Made by a program: the position numbers and the translations under genes
Source of the DNA: Qipengyuania vulgaris
GTDB taxonomy: Bacteria > Pseudomonadota > Alphaproteobacteria > Sphingomonadales > Sphingomonadaceae
Reading direction: 5' to 3'
Length of the DNA: 64,000 nt
Assembly (NCBI GenBank): GCA_000756795.1
Contig: CCSI01000001.1
Coordinates: 62,001-126,000 of the forward strand
Shown: positions 55,073-62,467 of the stretch, one piece after another
How the letters are laid out: each line of letters opens with the position of its first letter
Position numbering within the stretch: position 1 is the stretch's first letter
The notes under the pieces: model-generated
Seen by the model: the letters and a program-made list of their open reading frames with translations, nothing else
Databases searched by the model: none
Told to the model about the DNA's origin: nothing

Positions 55073-56632
55073 TTAGCGCGCCGCCTTCTGCGCCGCCACC
55101 ATGCGGGCCACGTCTTCGAGCAGCGCGGGCGCGTCATAAACGATGCCGTCCTTGATGGTCCAGCGCACGCCGCCGACCTGCTCGATATCGCCCGTCTCGT
55201 AATTGAGCCTCGTATGACCCGTGCCGTAGAGCAGCTTGAGATTGTCGAGCGGATTGCCGGGGACGATGACGAGGTCGGCCAGTTTGCCGACCTGTATCGT
55301 ACCCATTGGAGGGGTCTCACCGCGCGCCTGATAGATTTCCTGTGCCCCGGCGATGGTGGCGGCGCGGATGACTTCGAGCGGTTCGAGACCGGCCTCGCGC
55401 AGCATTTCCAGCTCGCCAATATAGGCAAAGCCCCAGGTCTGGTAGATATAACCCGGGTCGCTGCCTGCCGTGACGCGGCCGCCGCGGCGGTGGAATTCCT
55501 TGGTGAGGTCGAACCAATAGCGGTAGAACTTGCGCCAGGCGACTTCGTCCTCGGTCGACCAGTCCTTGTAATAACTGCCGTGATTGGTCGCGCTGGGAGC
55601 GTAGAAATCCATCAGGCTGGGCAGGCTGTAGCGCTCGTGCCAGTCGCGGTTTTTCGCCGCCATCACATCGCGGCTGGCGGAATATATGTTAAAGGTGGGG
55701 CTCAGCGTCACGCCGCTGTCGACGAGGTGGTCGATATAGGCATCCCATTCCTCGCTGCCCGGCTCCACCACTTGGTCGGCGAGCCGCGCGACCCAGGCGA
55801 AGCGCGATTGCTCGTCGTAATAGTTATAGCCCTGCGGATAGGTCGGCAGCGCCGCATCGTCGAGTAGGCTCTCGAAATGGCCGTAGAAATGGGTGATGCC
55901 GTCCATTCCTAGCTCCACGGCCTTGGCGGCGTTGACGCGCTGGACGCCGGGCTGGGCGAGGTGGGCGACGCTGCCCATCTGCTGCTTCTCCGCCTCGTCG
56001 AGCGCAGCTTCGAGCACTTCGGGCGAGGCTGAGTTGAAGAACTTGATGCCCCAATAGCCGCGCGCTTTCGCCCAGCGCACCCATTCGCGCGCCTTGGCGG
56101 GAGTGTCGACCGCGCTGCGGTCCCATTTGTCGCCGAAAGCGGCATAGGGAAACAGGCGCGGGGCGGTGATGGAATTGTCGGCGCTGCGCTGGGTGTCAGA
56201 GAGGTCGGGCTGGCCCGGTCCCCAGTAGAAGGACACGCCGCGAACGCTGGTCACGCCATGCGCGAGCCAGAGCTTGTAGCCGTAGGAGGGCTGTCCGGCC
56301 TTGGCGGGATCGCCATTGTGGCCGTGTGTATCGATGAAGCCGGGCATGACGGTCATGCCTTTAGCATCGATGATGCGGCCTGCCTTGGCGCGCACCTCGT
56401 CGGGAGCGCTCCCGCCATGGATGGCGGCGATGCGGTTGCCTTCGATGACGATGTCCACCGGCCCCATCGGCGGCGCGCCCGAGCCTTCGACCATCGTAGC
56501 GCCCGACACGATGAGCGTGGAGTAGGGGCCTTCGCCCTCGGTGCGGTCGGGGACAGGCTGCATGCCCTGCGCAGCAAGCGGTGCGGGCACCAGCACGGCT
56601 AGCGCGGCAAATACGAACTTCGGCAGTTTCAC
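55073..56632 (-). CDS. Secreted amidohydrolase-family metal hydrolase
   Basis: A 519-residue protein with signal peptide (MKLPKFVFAALAVLVPAPLAAQ) and an amidohydrolase (TIM barrel) domain. Metal ligands are likely His-x-His in GFIDTHGHNGD, then His in VAHLAQPG, His in ITHFYGH and the Asp in TAGSDPGYIY. The composite beta-sandwich flanks (LIVSGATMVEGSG and GKLADLVIVPGNPLDNL) are typical. Extracytoplasmic members are often peptidases or prolidase-like; the exact substrate is unknown. Confidence 0.88.
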   Translation of the reverse strand: MKLPKFVFAALAVLVPAPLAAQGMQPVPDRTEGEGPYSTLIVSGATMVEGSGAPPMGPVDIVIEGNRIAAIHGGSAPDEVRAKAGRIIDAKGMTVMPGFIDTHGHNGDPAKAGQPSYGYKLWLAHGVTSVRGVSFYWGPGQPDLSDTQRSADNSITAPRLFPYAAFGDKWDRSAVDTPAKAREWVRWAKARGYWGIKFFNSASPEVLEAALDEAEKQQMGSVAHLAQPGVQRVNAAKAVELGMDGITHFYGHFESLLDDAALPTYPQGYNYYDEQSRFAWVARLADQVVEPGSEEWDAYIDHLVDSGVTLSPTFNIYSASRDVMAAKNRDWHERYSLPSLMDFYAPSATNHGSYYKDWSTEDEVAWRKFYRYWFDLTKEFHRRGGRVTAGSDPGYIYQTWGFAYIGELEMLREAGLEPLEVIRAATIAGAQEIYQARGETPPMGTIQVGKLADLVIVPGNPLDNLKLLYGTGHTRLNYETGDIEQVGGVRWTIKDGIVYDAPALLEDVARMVAAQKAAR

Positions 56633-56767
56633 TCCGGCATCTCCCCCGTTTCGTGGCCTTGGCTAGCGCGCAAATCCCTGTCGGCAAAGCATTTAGCGGA
56701 ACTTCCCCGTTCAGGCAGGCGTAAAGCTCTGAAGCGGAAACTTCGCTCGACAAAAGGAGATTCGACG

Positions 56768-57502
56768 ATGCTGCCGATCAAGACCATGTTCGCCATACCC
56801 GCCCTCGTTATGGCTGCTGCCGTGCCGATGACCGCTCAGGCTGCCGAGGTGCAGATTGCATCCGAAGGGCCGGTGGTGGAGCTAACCGTGCAGGAAAACG
56901 TGTTCTCCGCCCCCGATGTCGCGCAAATCGCGGCTGGTGTGATGACCCGCGCCGCGACGGCCCAGCAGGCGGTTCAGCAAAATGCGCAGGCGATGGAGCG
57001 GCTGGTCGAACGCATGCGCGCGCTGGGTATCGAGCGGCGCGACATCCAGACGTCGAATTTCAATCTCAATCCCGATTATCGCCATAACCCCCAAACCGGC
57101 GAGGCGAGCTTCAGCGGATACACGGTGCATAATCAGGTCAGCGTTAAACTGCGTGACCTGAAGCGGGCTGGCGAGGTGCTTGATGCGCTGGTGACTGCGG
57201 GAGCGAACAATATCCATGGCCCCAATTTCATGCTCGAAGACGATGCGGACGCGAAGGCCAAAGCCCGGGCCGCAGCTTTCGCCAGCGGAAAGGCGATGGC
57301 CGAGAATTATGCGCGGATGGCGGGCTATTCCGGTGTACGCCTGCTGGAGGTGTCGGAAAGCTACCAGTCCTACATGCGCCCCCCGCCGCCGATGGCCGCA
57401 GTCGCGATGCGCGCGGAATCTGCCGATGCGTCCACTCCCATCGAGCCGGGTGAGGTAGGCACGGGCATTTCCATAATGGTCAAATACGAGATGGTGCGCT
57501 GA
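56768..57502 (+). CDS. SIMPL-domain periplasmic protein
   Basis: A 244-residue secreted protein of the SIMPL (DUF541/YggE) family. Signal peptide to about residue 24, then the domain with VELTVQENVFSAPDVAQIAAGVMTRAATAQQAVQ and GIERRDIQTSNFNLNPDY. YggE-like members protect against oxidative stress or join envelope complexes, with unclear biochemistry. Start ATG 56768 follows AAAGGAG. It precedes the PepSY gene but is separated from it by a promoter-like region. Confidence 0.88.
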   Translation: MLPIKTMFAIPALVMAAAVPMTAQAAEVQIASEGPVVELTVQENVFSAPDVAQIAAGVMTRAATAQQAVQQNAQAMERLVERMRALGIERRDIQTSNFNLNPDYRHNPQTGEASFSGYTVHNQVSVKLRDLKRAGEVLDALVTAGANNIHGPNFMLEDDADAKAKARAAAFASGKAMAENYARMAGYSGVRLLEVSESYQSYMRPPPPMAAVAMRAESADASTPIEPGEVGTGISIMVKYEMVR

Positions 57503-57513
57503 GCAAGTTTCAC

Positions 57514-57569
57514 TGAACGGGTGTGAACGCTCGCATTCACACCTTGTTCAATGCTTCATGCGTAGTAGA
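57514..57569 (+). promoter_or_regulatory. OmpR/PhoP-type promoter box in front of the PepSY gene
   Basis: Plus-strand box ATTCACACCTTGTTCAAT (57535-57552) holds two TTCA half-sites 11 bp apart. Ten bases later TAGTAG (57563-57568) is a -10 candidate. The mirror copy GTTCACACCCGTTCA on the minus strand (57514-57528) makes the inverted repeat GGTGTGAA-N8-TTCACACC (57520-57543). The same box and spacing recur before the lipoprotein gene at 60.1 kb. Confidence 0.65.
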
Positions 57570-57578
57570 GCTGGCATC

Positions 57579-57884
57579 ATGAAACAGGTTCTCGCATCCC
57601 TTCTCGCCTTCGGCCTCATCGCCGGGCCGATTGCCGCGACGCCGGCTGAGGCGCAGCGCCGCTCCGACCAGGGCGAAGCGCGCAAAGAAATGCGCGCGGG
57701 CAACATCCTGCGTGCCCGCGAGATCGAGAACCGTGTCCTGCCGATGATGGGCGATGCGGAATACCTTGGCTTCGATTACGATTCGACCGCCATGGCCTAC
57801 CGCCTCAAGTTCATCAAAAAGGGCAAGGTGCTCTATGTCGATGTCGATGCGCGCACTGGCCGCATCCTTCGTCGTAGTCGCTGA
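57579..57884 (+). CDS. Small periplasmic PepSY-domain protein
   Basis: A 101-residue secreted protein with signal peptide ending near residue 26 (AEAQRR) and a single PepSY domain (GNILRAREIENRVLPMMGDAEYLGFDYDSTAMAYRLKFIKKGKVLYVDVDARTGRIL, about residues 40-97). Small PepSY proteins often sit beside two-component genes and are thought to modulate the sensor from the periplasm. Here the response regulator starts 86 bases downstream. The PhoP-type box upstream suggests feedback control. Confidence 0.85.
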   Translation: MKQVLASLLAFGLIAGPIAATPAEAQRRSDQGEARKEMRAGNILRAREIENRVLPMMGDAEYLGFDYDSTAMAYRLKFIKKGKVLYVDVDARTGRILRRSR

Positions 57885-57904
57885 TTTTCCGCGATCAGAA
57901 ACCT

Positions 57905-57936
57905 CGTTCATCTTGACGCGTTCATCTACATGAACG
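57905..57936 (+). promoter_or_regulatory. CGTTCATC repeats in front of the response regulator gene
   Basis: CGTTCATC occurs at 57905-57912 and again at 57919-57926, with the inverse ATGAACG at 57930-57936. The TTCA core matches the half-sites before the PepSY and lipoprotein genes, but the spacing is 14 rather than 11 bp. Likely autoregulatory sites of the response regulator. Confidence 0.45.
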
Positions 57937-57970
57937 ACACGCGCAAGATTATTAGCGAGGACGGAAATTC

Positions 57971-58651
57971 ATGAGAATCCTTATCGTCGAAGACGAGCCG
58001 ACCCTCGGGCAGCAGCTGAAAAGCACGCTCGAGCAAAACGGCTATGCGGTTGATTTGTCCACCGATGGCGAGGACGGACATTTCCTCGGCTCAACCGAAG
58101 ATTACGATGCGGTCATCCTCGACCTCGGCCTGCCCGAGATCGACGGGCTGACGGTGCTCGGCATGTGGCGCAAGGAGGGGCGCAAGTTCCCCGTGCTGGT
58201 GCTAACCGCGCGTGACAGCTGGTCGGACAAGGTCGCCGGCCTCGATGCGGGCGCCGACGATTACCTTGCCAAGCCCTTCCAGACCGAAGAGCTGATTGCC
58301 CGCCTGCGTGCGCTGATCCGCCGCGCTTCGGGCAATACCTCGAGCGAGCTGACGGCTGGCGACGTGCGTCTCGACACGCGCTCGGGCCGTGTCACGCTGA
58401 AGGGCGAGCCGGTCAAGCTGACCGCGCAGGAATACAAGCTGCTGTCCTACCTCATGCACCACAAAGGCAAGGTGGTCAGCCGCACCGAACTTATCGAACA
58501 CATTTACGACCAGGATTTCGACCGGGATTCCAACACCATCGAAGTCTTCGTCACGCGCATCCGCAAGAAGCTGGGTGCCGAAGTGATTACGACCATCCGT
58601 GGACTCGGTTACAGCCTCGACGACCCCGCCGACCAGCCCCGCGCATCCTGA
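57971..58651 (+). CDS. OmpR-family (PhoP-like) response regulator
   Basis: A 226-residue regulator: receiver domain with DEP acidic pocket, phosphoacceptor Asp51 (VILDLGLPEIDG) and the conserved Lys of YLAKPFQ, then an OmpR winged helix (ELTAGDVRLDTRSGRVTLKG ... SYLMHHKGKVVSRTELIEHIYDQDF). The C-terminus IEVFVTRIRKKLG matches the PhoP/QseB type. The kinase frame starts 53 bases before its stop. Ribosome site is weak (AGGACGG). Its likely target sites are the TTCA boxes around it. Confidence 0.95.
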   Translation: MRILIVEDEPTLGQQLKSTLEQNGYAVDLSTDGEDGHFLGSTEDYDAVILDLGLPEIDGLTVLGMWRKEGRKFPVLVLTARDSWSDKVAGLDAGADDYLAKPFQTEELIARLRALIRRASGNTSSELTAGDVRLDTRSGRVTLKGEPVKLTAQEYKLLSYLMHHKGKVVSRTELIEHIYDQDFDRDSNTIEVFVTRIRKKLGAEVITTIRGLGYSLDDPADQPRAS

Positions 58652-60092
58652 GGAGGATGCCGAGGCGAGGGCGGCGGAGGGTTCTCCTTCCGGTGCTTCC
58701 GCTGCGCCTGCCAGAGATGCCGACCCGGTAGTCCTCGCTACACCCCCTGCGCCCCAACGCAGCCTCGCTAAGCGCATGATGGCGATTGCCGCCATCTGGA
58801 TCTCGGTGTTACTGCTTGGCGGCGGATTTGCGCTCGATCGAGCGCTGACGCGGGAGGTGCAGGAGAATTTCGACGACCAGCTCGAATATGTGTTGACCGC
58901 GTTGATCGCCTCGGCGGAAGTCGATGACTGGGGCGATGTGCGTTTTTATCGCTCGCTTGGCGACCAGCGCTTCCTCGAAGTCAATTCAGGGGTTTATTGG
59001 CAGATCAGCGGACCGGAACGCGACCCCTACCCGAGCCGGAGCTTGTGGGACCGCACTCTGGAAGTGCATGGCGATCACGAGGACAACGAACCTCACTTCT
59101 ACGACAGCAACCAGTTCCCGGACGAACCGCTGCGTATCGTCGAGCGCAATATCATCCTGCCCGATAGCGATGTGCAATGGACCTTCACGGTTGCCTCCGC
59201 GCGCGAGGAACTCGATTTCCAGGTGGCGCGTATTCGCTCGATCCTCGTGTGGAGTTTCGCCGTATTGGGTCTGGGGCTTCTCATCATGGCCGCGCTGCAG
59301 AGCTGGTATGGTCTCTCTCCCCTCCGCCGTGTGCGTGCTGCCATCAAGTCGATGCGAAGCGAAGGTGCGAACCGCATCGAGGAACCGCTGCCGCTCGAGG
59401 TCGAGCCTCTGGTCGATGAAATCAATGCGCTCCTCGCTCATACGGAAAAGCAGGCCGAGGAAGCGCGCATGCATGCGGGCAATCTCGCCCATGCGCTGAA
59501 AACGCCGCTTACGGTCCTCACCAATGCCGCCACGGCGCATGACCCGAAACTCTCGGACCTCGTTTGCCGCGAGACCAAGACCATGCAGCGCCATGTCGAA
59601 CACCACCTTGCGCGGGCAAGGGCAGTCGGGCGCCGCGCGACCGGCCATTCGCGCGCCGACGTCTGGCCAAGCGCGGAAAGCGTGCTGCGCGCGGTGACAC
59701 GCATTTACGAGGACACCCGCTTCGACCTCGACGGGAACCGGGAGGCGACTGTTGCCATCGAGCGGCAGGACCTCGACGAAATCCTCGGCAATCTCATCGA
59801 GAACGCGGCGAAATATGGCGGCGGAAGCGTCTTCGTGACCGTCGATGCACAGCCTGAGGACGAGCTGTGCACCATCTGGGTGGAGGACGACGGCGAAGGC
59901 ATTCCCGAAGCCGAACGCATCCGCATCTTCGACCGCGGCGCCCGCCTCGACACCGGCAAGCCCGGAACGGGGCTCGGCCTGTCTATCGTGCGCGATGTCG
60001 CGGAAATCTATGCGGGCGAGGTGGCACTGGGCACCAGCGAGGACCTTGGCGGCCTGTTAGTCACGCTTAGATTACCGAGACCCGGCAACTGA
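58599..60092 (+). CDS. PhoQ-like sensor histidine kinase
   Basis: A 497-residue kinase. After a Pro/Ala-rich cytoplasmic start come two membrane helices (about 62-82 and about 210-232) bracketing a 125-residue periplasmic sensor rich in Asp/Glu (HGDHEDNEPHFYDS). Then HAMP, HisKA with NLAHALKTPLTVL (His298) and a full HATPase: LIENAAKYGGG (N box), DDGEGIP and GTGLGLSIVRD. The GTG at 58599 lies inside the regulator gene; a start near the first helix is an alternative. It resembles the alphaproteobacterial FeuQ/PhoQ kinases. Confidence 0.92.
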   Translation: MDSVTASTTPPTSPAHPEEDAEARAAEGSPSGASAAPARDADPVVLATPPAPQRSLAKRMMAIAAIWISVLLLGGGFALDRALTREVQENFDDQLEYVLTALIASAEVDDWGDVRFYRSLGDQRFLEVNSGVYWQISGPERDPYPSRSLWDRTLEVHGDHEDNEPHFYDSNQFPDEPLRIVERNIILPDSDVQWTFTVASAREELDFQVARIRSILVWSFAVLGLGLLIMAALQSWYGLSPLRRVRAAIKSMRSEGANRIEEPLPLEVEPLVDEINALLAHTEKQAEEARMHAGNLAHALKTPLTVLTNAATAHDPKLSDLVCRETKTMQRHVEHHLARARAVGRRATGHSRADVWPSAESVLRAVTRIYEDTRFDLDGNREATVAIERQDLDEILGNLIENAAKYGGGSVFVTVDAQPEDELCTIWVEDDGEGIPEAERIRIFDRGARLDTGKPGTGLGLSIVRDVAEIYAGEVALGTSEDLGGLLVTLRLPRPGN

Positions 60093-60127
60093 ATTCACAA
60101 ACTGTTCAATTCGTCCACGGTAGGCAA
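60093..60127 (+). promoter_or_regulatory. Second copy of the PhoP-type box, before the lipoprotein gene
   Basis: ATTCACAAACTGTTCAAT (60093-60110) is identical at 15 of 18 positions to the box at 57535-57552, with the same 11-bp TTCA period. TAGGCA (60121-60126) follows after exactly ten bases as a -10 candidate, and the ATG comes 23 bases after the box. Confidence 0.65.
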
Positions 60128-60133
60128 CGTTTC

Positions 60134-61075
60134 ATGGACGATTCGAAGAACAGCGCGCGCTTGGCGCCACTCGCTTTCCGGATGGGGATCATCGGCCTTG
60201 CAGGCCTCGGCCTTGGTGGATGTACCATTTACGACGATGGCTATGGCCATTCGGGCGTCTCGGTCGGCGTCGGTTATCACGACGGATATTACGACCCCTA
60301 TTACGACGACTACTATTACGGCTGGTATGAGGATTACTATTATCCCGGCACCGGCTATTACGTCTACGACCGGCGCGGTTATCGCCATCGCTGGAGCGAC
60401 CGCCACCGCCACTATTGGCACCAGCGTCGCAGCGGCGTGAGGCGCCTGGCCGAAAACTGGGCCGGTTATTCGCGCGGCGATGATGGCTATTATCGCGATC
60501 AGCGTCGCCACGCGCGCCGCGGAGACCGTCACGAACGCCGCGGCGAGGGTCGCCGGGGCCGCCACGTAGGCGAGGCTCGCGAAGAGCGCCGTGAGGGCGG
60601 CTTTGGCAGCGAGGCCGTGCGCCGCGCGGCAGAAGCGAGGGCGCGCGAGGAGCGTCTTGCAGAGCGTCGCACAGAAAGTCGGGAGGAGCGCCGTGCAGAG
60701 CGCCGCGCCGACCGCCGTGATGAGCGTCGATCAGAGCGTCGCAACGACCGCCGTGAAGGCAGCTTTGGCAGCGAGGCCGTACGCCGGGCAGCCGGGGCAT
60801 CTTCACGCGAGGAACGTCGCACGCGTCCCGCCGAACGCGCTGGCACGCGCCGCAACGCGCCGGCTGCCGCCGCCACGGGCACTCGCCGCGCACGAACCAC
60901 GCCCGCTCCGGCGGCTGCAACGCGGCGGGCGGAACCTTCCCGTCCGGTAGCTTCCGCGCCCGCACCGCGTGCCCAGCAGTCAAGCCGTCCGGCCCGCACG
61001 CAGCGCAGCGCCCCGGCGCCGCGCCGCAGTGCTCCGCCCGCCAAATCGCGGCCTTCGCAGCACGATGACGACTAA
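60134..61075 (+). CDS. Arginine-rich lipoprotein of unknown function
   Basis: A 313-residue lipoprotein: basic n-region, hydrophobic GIIGLAGLGL and Cys30 in GLGGC. A Tyr/Asp/Gly-rich segment (about 31-78) full of YYDDYYYG-like runs is followed by a long Arg/Glu stretch with two copies of an EGGFGSEAVRRAA/EGSFGSEAVRRAA unit, and an Ala/Pro/Arg/Ser tail. Composition resembles RcnB-type proteins but without their C-terminal domain. It follows the kinase under a PhoP-type box. It overlaps the convergent chorismate mutase stop by four bases. Confidence 0.75.
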   Translation: MDDSKNSARLAPLAFRMGIIGLAGLGLGGCTIYDDGYGHSGVSVGVGYHDGYYDPYYDDYYYGWYEDYYYPGTGYYVYDRRGYRHRWSDRHRHYWHQRRSGVRRLAENWAGYSRGDDGYYRDQRRHARRGDRHERRGEGRRGRHVGEAREERREGGFGSEAVRRAAEARAREERLAERRTESREERRAERRADRRDERRSERRNDRREGSFGSEAVRRAAGASSREERRTRPAERAGTRRNAPAAAATGTRRARTTPAPAAATRRAEPSRPVASAPAPRAQQSSRPARTQRSAPAPRRSAPPAKSRPSQHDDD

Positions 61076-61383
61076 GCGGAGTTTCCGCGCGCCTGTTCGT
61101 GGTGCCGGATAACTTCGTCGATGATGAAGCGAAGAAACTTTTCGCTGAATTCGGGGTCCAGTTCGCTTTCTTCCGCGAGGCGCCGCAGCCGGGCAATCTG
61201 CTCGGCCTCGCGCGCCGGATCGGCGGGAGGAAGCGTGACCTTCGCCTTGTAGGCGCCGACCGCCTGCGTAATCCGGAACCGCTCGGCCAGCATATGCACC
61301 AGCGCGGCATCGATATTGTCGATGCTCTTGCGGAAGCCTGCCAGCGTTGCGTCCTCGGCGGTTTGTTGCATGTCTTGCGCCAT
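61072..61383 (-). CDS. Chorismate mutase (AroQ/type II)
   Basis: A 103-residue all-helical chorismate mutase that rearranges chorismate to prephenate in phenylalanine and tyrosine synthesis. Active-site residues appear in FRKSIDNIDAALVHMLAERFRITQAVGAYKA (residues about 17-47) and in the IARLRRLAEE...FLRFIIDEVIRHH helix. It stands alone as a monofunctional enzyme. The ATG at 61383 is used; another ATG is four codons downstream. Confidence 0.93.
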   Translation of the reverse strand: MAQDMQQTAEDATLAGFRKSIDNIDAALVHMLAERFRITQAVGAYKAKVTLPPADPAREAEQIARLRRLAEESELDPEFSEKFLRFIIDEVIRHHEQARGNSA

Positions 61384-61450
61384 GAGGTGAGAGATTAGCG
61401 GCAATCGCGCTCTTGCCAAGAAAGCTTAGGCAGGACATGGCCAAGCTGAC

Positions 61451-62467
61451 ATGACAGCCGACGTCGTTCCCCTGCCGCGCAAGGCCCCGGAGCCTTCCAT
61501 CGAGCCCATGCTGGCGCTGACCGCGCAGGGCATGAACCAGGTCAACCAGGTCATCCTCGACCGCATGCAGAGCGAAGTGCCGCTCATCCCGGCGCTGGCG
61601 GGTCACCTGATTTCAGGGGGCGGCAAGCGGTTGCGCCCCATGCTCACGCTCGCAGGGGCAGAGCTGGTCGGATATAGCGGCACGCGCCACCACAAACTCG
61701 CCGCGGCGGTCGAGTTCATCCACACAGCCACGCTTTTGCATGACGATGTCGTCGACGGCAGCGATTTGCGGCGCGGCAAGGCGGCGGCCAATATCATCTT
61801 CGGCAATCCGGCGACCGTGCTGGTCGGCGATTTCCTGTTCAGCCGCAGTTTCGAGCTGATGACCGAGGACGGCAGCCTCAAGGTCCTTAAAATCCTCTCC
61901 GGCGCCAGCGCCATCATTGCCGAGGGCGAGGTCGACCAGCTGACCGCGCAGCGCAAAATTGACACCAGCGAGGAACGCTACCTCCACATCATCCGCGCCA
62001 AGACCGCCGCGCTCTTCGCCGCCGCCAGCCGCATCGCGGCCGTCGTGGCCGAATGCAGTGACGAGGAGGAACAGGCGCTCGACGAATACGGCCGCAACCT
62101 CGGCGTGGCCTTCCAGCTCGTCGACGACGCGCTCGATTACGATTCCAATGCCGCCGAAATGGGCAAGGACCGCGGCGACGACTTCCGCGAGGGCAAGATG
62201 ACGCTGCCCGTTATCCTCGCCTATGCGCGCGGAAACGAGGAAGAACGCGAATTCTGGAAGGCCGCGATTGCGGGCTTCCGCACCTCGGACGACGACCTCG
62301 AGGAAGCCATCCGCCTTATCGACAGCCACAATGCGGTCGCCGATACCAAGGCCCGCGCACGCCATTTCGCCCAGCGCGCTATCGATGCCCTGTCGATATT
62401 CTCTGACGGCAAGGCCCGCCGCGCCATGACTCAGGCCGCACTCTTCGCTGTCTCGCGCGGATACTGA
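61451..62467 (+). CDS. ispB: Polyprenyl diphosphate synthase (ubiquinone side chain)
   Basis: A 338-residue trans-prenyltransferase that chains isopentenyl units onto a starter to make the ubiquinone tail, the substrate of UbiA. The two aspartate-rich motifs are HDDVVDGSDLRRG (FARM, about residue 100) and QLVDDALDYD (SARM, about residue 225), with GGKRLRP and KTAALFAAAS also in place. Chain length cannot be read from the sequence. Divergent from chorismate mutase; a terminator follows. Confidence 0.93.
   Translation: MTADVVPLPRKAPEPSIEPMLALTAQGMNQVNQVILDRMQSEVPLIPALAGHLISGGGKRLRPMLTLAGAELVGYSGTRHHKLAAAVEFIHTATLLHDDVVDGSDLRRGKAAANIIFGNPATVLVGDFLFSRSFELMTEDGSLKVLKILSGASAIIAEGEVDQLTAQRKIDTSEERYLHIIRAKTAALFAAASRIAAVVAECSDEEEQALDEYGRNLGVAFQLVDDALDYDSNAAEMGKDRGDDFREGKMTLPVILAYARGNEEEREFWKAAIAGFRTSDDDLEEAIRLIDSHNAVADTKARARHFAQRAIDALSIFSDGKARRAMTQAALFAVSRGY

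Follow-up and report, generated by a model that had tools for sequence, protein, structure and literature searches.

A TTCA-N7-TTCA box conserved ahead of a putative FeuNPQ-type operon and of lipoprotein genes in Qipengyuania vulgaris and its relatives

The analyzed DNA is a 64-kb stretch of the Qipengyuania vulgaris genome (hereafter, the window). It contains a gene encoding a small exported protein (export was assigned by visual inspection of the N-terminus) ahead of the genes of a response regulator and a sensor histidine kinase, and the gene of a probable lipoprotein follows (Table 1). Response_reg and Trans_reg_C domains were found in the regulator, in agreement with the OmpR/PhoP type assigned to it in the original prediction. 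The lipoprotein has an LGGC lipobox with the cysteine at residue 30 (read by eye) and gave no Pfam match at E 0.001 and no NCBIfam match at E 0.01. Within the genus, identity to the window sequences was 93–100% for the regulator, 68–97% for the kinase, and 63–96% for the PepSY-like protein. The operon is preceded by a SIMPL (DUF541) gene at 56768–57502.

Table 1. Genes and sequence elements of the locus (positions in the window)
Feature	Position	Strand	Basis or remark
Box 1, TTCA-N6-GTTCA core, ahead of PepSY gene	57535..57552	+	Pattern match, conservation
-10 element TAGTAG, 10 bases 3' of box 1	57563..57568	+	Expected transcript start about 57575
Small secreted PepSY-like protein, FeuN/DbfQ position, 101 aa	57579..57884	+	
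Conserved element, TTCA-N10-TTCA and palindrome, between PepSY and regulator genes	57904..57945	Not assigned	
OmpR-family response regulator, probable FeuP orthologue	57971..58651	+	Domains, best hits, tree
Sensor histidine kinase (2CSK_N, HATPase_c), FeuQ position	58599..60092	+	True start uncertain; listed ORF overlaps regulator
Box 2, starts on the base right after the kinase stop codon	60093..60110	+	
-10 element TAGGCA, 10 bases 3' of box 2	60121..60126	+	Expected transcript start about 60133
Arg-rich (22%) probable lipoprotein, Tyr-rich N-terminal part	60134..61075	+	

The two boxes, ATTCACACCTTGTTCAAT (box 1) and ATTCACAAACTGTTCAAT (box 2), are identical in 15 of 18 bases, the differences being three adjacent spacer bases, and TTCA is repeated 11 bp apart in each. 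The sequence thus bears out the original description of two similar boxes with TTCA half-sites of an 11-bp period, placed just upstream of a TAG-type -10 element at a distance of exactly ten bases (TAGTAG at 57563 and TAGGCA at 60121). The pattern ATTCACA-N3-TGTTCAAT has exact matches in the window only at boxes 1 and 2; with up to three mismatches, three matches were obtained, versus a shuffled mean of 0.49. The part conserved across the targets described below is TTCA-N6-GTTCA-N12-TA, which is fewer than all 18 bases. The start codons are located 16 (PepSY) and 13 (lipoprotein) bases downstream of the initial T of the -10 element, and should the transcripts start as expected, they would be only 4 and 1 nt further on, which would make both mRNAs nearly leaderless. 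A scan of region 56500–61500 against Rfam gave a single match, far below the gathering score.

For the analysis of conservation, five sets of regulator loci were used. A regulator match was found in all 61 relatives, in 59 of them at the orthologue level (E below 1e-90). The genus set represents 36 of 37 genomes (G013, 75% complete, has no orthologue-level match), and the order set 23 of 24 (G044 has no such match). The family set consists of 32 loci from the 58 genomes with a match, own genome included, and of locus L252 from a same-family genome; the class set consists of 40 loci from 38 genomes, out of 42 with a match that belong to the class but not to the family. As for Rhizobiales, 80 loci were kept from at least 591 relatives, and 620 nt of upstream sequence was present in 79. 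Among 190 class genomes, 145 lacked a regulator match at E 1e-62.

The 18-base box with no more than two mismatches precedes the PepSY gene in all 36 genus loci, and the first three bases of the -10 element at 57563 are TAG in 30 of them. Within 620 nt upstream of the regulator, TTCA-N7-TTCA was found in 36/36 genus, 32/33 family, 16/23 order, and 25/40 class loci and, among the matches listed, in 71/79 Rhizobiales loci; the exact box is absent in 7 of the 23 order and 15 of the 40 class loci. On the other strand, the repeat was detected in no genus or family locus, in two loci each of the order and class sets, and in one Rhizobiales locus (among the matches listed). TA is located exactly 12 nt after the repeat in 32/36 genus, 28/32 family, 12/16 order, and 15/25 class boxes, and in 30 of the 71 Rhizobiales boxes among the matches listed. 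Conservation of the box and its spacing at orthologous loci, the check named together with the original prediction, is therefore observed from the genus to the class and in Rhizobiales.

When TTCA spacers of 0 to 20 were compared over the same 620 nt, a spacer of 7 was the commonest in all five sets (in Rhizobiales, among the matches listed). The others were far rarer, reaching 8 to 10 of 79 Rhizobiales loci for spacers 1, 2, and 11 (among the matches listed), with the exception of spacer 10, which corresponds to the second conserved element of Table 1. This element, around TTGACGCGTTCATCTACATGAACGA, has an exact TTCA-N10-TTCA in 23 of the 36 genus loci; a second promoter or operator may reside here. 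In several Bradyrhizobium loci, L333, L334, and L341 among them, only about 70–85 nt separate the box from the regulator, too short a stretch to hold a gene for a small exported protein. The ATG of the PepSY gene lies 42–43 nt downstream, counted from the initial T of the first TTCA, in 35 of the 36 genus loci and 39 nt in one; because this distance is near-constant, the gene probably starts at 57579 and not at the in-frame ATG at 57558.

The same repeat is known from Sinorhizobium meliloti, where TTCA-N7-TTCA (Motif 3) is reported as the candidate FeuP site; it was found upstream of 12 genes, five of them already known to be FeuP-dependent, and also near feuN (PMC3616915). The window locus resembles the FeuN-FeuP-FeuQ locus of S. 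meliloti in the order of its genes (small periplasmic-type protein, OmpR-type regulator, kinase) and in the presence of this repeat upstream of the operon (PMC3616915). The best hit of the window regulator was the FeuP-position gene in all five named Rhizobiales genomes (63–66% identity); in three Rhizobiaceae genomes, the second hits showed 51–54% identity versus 65–66% for the best. In the reverse search, made with the L397 regulator only, the window regulator came first (66%), and the next hit had 38%. Loci L396, L397, L399, and L385 share the gene order small exported protein, regulator, kinase, lipoprotein, and CcmI-like gene, the last being checked by Pfam in L396 only. The commonest regulator variants from the genus to Rhizobiales (in the latter, among the matches listed) have the recognition helix DSNTIEVF; two class sequences read DSNVVEVL, and all five paralogues checked differ from DSNTIEVF.

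In the phylogenetic tree, the clade uniting the window and Rhizobiales regulators has modest support (88/82). The box is carried by 43 of the 49 non-paralogue sequences, and 4 of the 17 paralogues are placed among box-bearing class sequences in the next wider clade. As for the small exported protein, the window sequence scores 18.4 bits with Pfam PepSY, below the cut-off of 24, and matches, at 98.7% by profile, seven proteins encoded at this position in order- and class-level genomes; the order/class set in turn matches L388 and L362 at 97%. The class-level protein of L285 reaches 49.9 bits with Pfam PepSY, but the regulator of L285 stands beside paralogues in the tree. The FeuN-position proteins of Rhizobiaceae are not detectably PepSY: those of L385, L397, L398, and L399 did not match the PepSY sets in profile comparisons (1–18%). 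Since the repeat is the published candidate FeuP site and the best hits fall in Rhizobiaceae FeuN-P-Q loci, the locus is most likely a FeuNPQ-type system, S. meliloti being represented here by its published motif and the other Rhizobiales by sequence. A second FeuP-like regulator, SMc02366, is reported in S. meliloti, and the orthologue of the window regulator may be either of the two.

The box could instead be the site of another regulator that controls both the operon and envelope genes, the enclosed regulator acting elsewhere. Other OmpR-type regulators do exist in the genome, as indicated by its 21 matches to the window regulator at E 0.001, and binding of the box by the enclosed regulator is a prediction from sequence. 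Against this explanation, the box co-occurs with the enclosed regulator across the class, and TTCA-N7-TTCA is absent upstream of all 17 paralogues, which were chosen by hand; the FeuP dependence of five of the 12 motif-bearing S. meliloti genes cited above points the same way. Control by another regulator is consequently considered unlikely, and the box is predicted to be the site of the FeuP-like regulator of the locus.

A search for further genes behind the box gave 130 genus-wide matches of TTCA-N6-GTTCA-N12-TA in 37 genomes versus 19 for the reversed pattern; mismatched matches in the own genome were not counted as targets unless conserved. In 109 TTCA-N7-TTCA sites, the second TTCA is always preceded by G, and positions +27/+28 are 88% T and 98% A; as the sites were selected by this repeat, the TTCA columns are fixed by choice, and independent information comes solely from the G and the TA. 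Two genes located away from the operon are preceded by the box in the genus. The first encodes a lolA-like protein (Pfam LolA 83.9 bits, cut-off 23.6; NCBIfam lolA 62.9, cut-off 112) and has the box 22–23 nt ahead with at most one mismatch in 30 of 30 loci, with TA in 28 (30 loci of the 37 genomes with a match). The second encodes a DUF4136 lipoprotein, with the box in 29 of 30 loci and TA in 28 (30 of 36). In addition, the lolA-like promoters (L207–L236) contain GCTCC (30/30) and GGAGC (29/30) flanking the -10 element as an inverted repeat. The box was also noted ahead of a secreted protein with weak TPR similarity and of a decarboxylase-like protein (named by eye) in some genus members, and ahead of a SIMPL-like gene (named by eye) away from the operon in one member, L428.

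Genes similar to that of the Arg/Tyr-rich lipoprotein were matched 15 times, in 14 of 37 genomes. Of the 15, 14 have the box; seven lie on a different contig or at a distance from the operon, and six of these seven are among the 14. Only 8 of the 14 boxes have TA at the fixed distance. The Arg/Tyr lipoprotein follows the kinase in only 7 of 36 genus loci. The locus had been described as a self-contained module; this part of the original prediction is not supported in view of the rare linkage of the lipoprotein and of the box ahead of the lolA-like and DUF4136 genes elsewhere in the genome.

In other families of the order, the place after the kinase is often taken by another lipoprotein, of the 17-kDa-antigen type. 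It was identified with a profile built from six proteins of the searched loci (L042, L044, L055, L388, L396, and L397), which match by construction. In the genus, the profile detected it in none of 35 loci; the single family locus with it, among 19, has the box. Among 21 loci from other families of the order, 15 carry it after the kinase, and the box stands in the gap in 13 of these; the corresponding class figures are 2 of 20 loci, the box being present in both gaps. In Rhizobiales, 23 of 74 loci contain it, and the box was found in 0 of the 23 gaps among the matches listed. With Pfam 17kDa_Anti_2, L388 (43.3 bits) and an order-level protein (35.2) exceeded the cut-off, and L392 and L397 fell short of it; L382 gave no match and contains only glycine zippers. 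Two family loci have the Arg/Tyr lipoprotein after the kinase, L303 with the exact repeat and L312 without it. The presence of one or the other lipoprotein type after the kinase may reflect exchange of the gene with the promoter retained, or far-reaching divergence of a single lipoprotein.

The rare linkage of the Arg/Tyr lipoprotein within the genus would also fit box 2 being a chance copy with no role at the lipoprotein gene. Such a coincidence is very hard to reconcile with the box ahead of Arg/Tyr lipoprotein genes located elsewhere in other species and with its presence before the other lipoprotein type that occupies this place in other families, so that this explanation is given almost no weight. 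The original claim that the enclosed regulator activates both the PepSY and the lipoprotein genes is supported by the box conservation at orthologous loci; autoregulation and regulation of the neighbouring lipoprotein gene are predicted as likely.

Taken together, the data suggest, with a probability of about 80%, a FeuN-FeuP-FeuQ-type system in which the regulator activates its own operon, the adjoining lipoprotein gene, and the distant lolA-like and DUF4136 genes via TTCA-N7-TTCA. In this system, the kinase would be the sensor of envelope disturbance, and the PepSY-like protein would keep it at low activity, by analogy with FeuN and DbfQ. The phosphorylated regulator would bind the boxes at the -35 place, 12 bases before a TA-type -10 element, and, judging from the fixed spacing, recruit RNA polymerase. 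It would thereby switch on its own operon (brake, regulator, and kinase) together with the genes of the adjoining lipoprotein, the distant LolA-type carrier, and the DUF4136 lipoprotein. As in the negative feedback of the original prediction, the PepSY-like product may be a brake induced by its own regulator, with the lipoproteins and the LolA-type carrier as the output.

The opposite action, repression by the regulator at the boxes, is improbable. A repressor could also sit at the -35 place, where the box is located; a fixed distance to the -10 element suits an activator of the OmpR family. In S. meliloti, FeuP is reported to be needed for the activation of at least 14 genes (PMC3616915), and in Vibrio cholerae, mutants with increased phosphorylation of DbfR showed a rise of about 40-fold in a dbfQRS reporter (PMC12714742). 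Activation by the regulator is accordingly retained in the proposed scheme.

Comparison with described systems shows both likenesses and differences. In S. meliloti, FeuN is reported as a small periplasmic protein restraining the kinase (PMC12486126), and the named target in the cited texts is ndvA (cyclic glucan export), whereas here the genes behind the box encode lipoproteins and a lolA-like protein (PMC3616915, PMC12486126, PMC5929573, PMC5539429). The DbfQ-DbfR-DbfS system of V. cholerae is similar in that a PepSY-type periplasmic protein, DbfQ, which restrains the kinase, is encoded before the regulator and kinase; its positive operon autoregulation and response to outer-membrane damage are likewise counted as a likeness to the system proposed here (PMC12714742). 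The words FeuN, FeuQ, lipoprotein, and LolA do not occur in the text of that paper, and the likeness is drawn from the description of the system (PMC12714742). Pseudomonas aeruginosa BqsR-BqsS with PA2658/PA2659, another PepSY-linked two-component system, is likened by description only (PMC12714742). In a literature search, the repeat TTCA-N7-TTCA turned up in one paper, and among the matches listed, there was no co-mention of PepSY with FeuP, FeuPQ, or FeuN, nor of FeuP with LolA; most subscription journals were outside the search, and this is weak evidence of absence.

A wider generalization is offered tentatively, at rather less than even odds: FeuNPQ may be a widespread alphaproteobacterial response to outer-membrane lipoprotein stress, FeuN and DbfQ being one kind of PepSY-type kinase brake. 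The output gene next to that of the kinase would have been swapped between unrelated lipoproteins (17-kDa-antigen and Arg/Tyr types) under a kept FeuP-box promoter, with lolA as a core distant target.

The results extend a candidate motif of one species to a footprint across Alphaproteobacteria and provide a testable regulon (lolA-like, DUF4136, and variable lipoprotein genes) for a system whose regulatory role has been investigated in S. meliloti. They also suggest that FeuN and DbfQ, which were described separately, work alike. The genes behind the box appear to be those that a cell-surface control system, known from a root-nodule bacterium, turns on, and in the bacteria analyzed here, these genes encode lipoproteins and a likely lipoprotein carrier.
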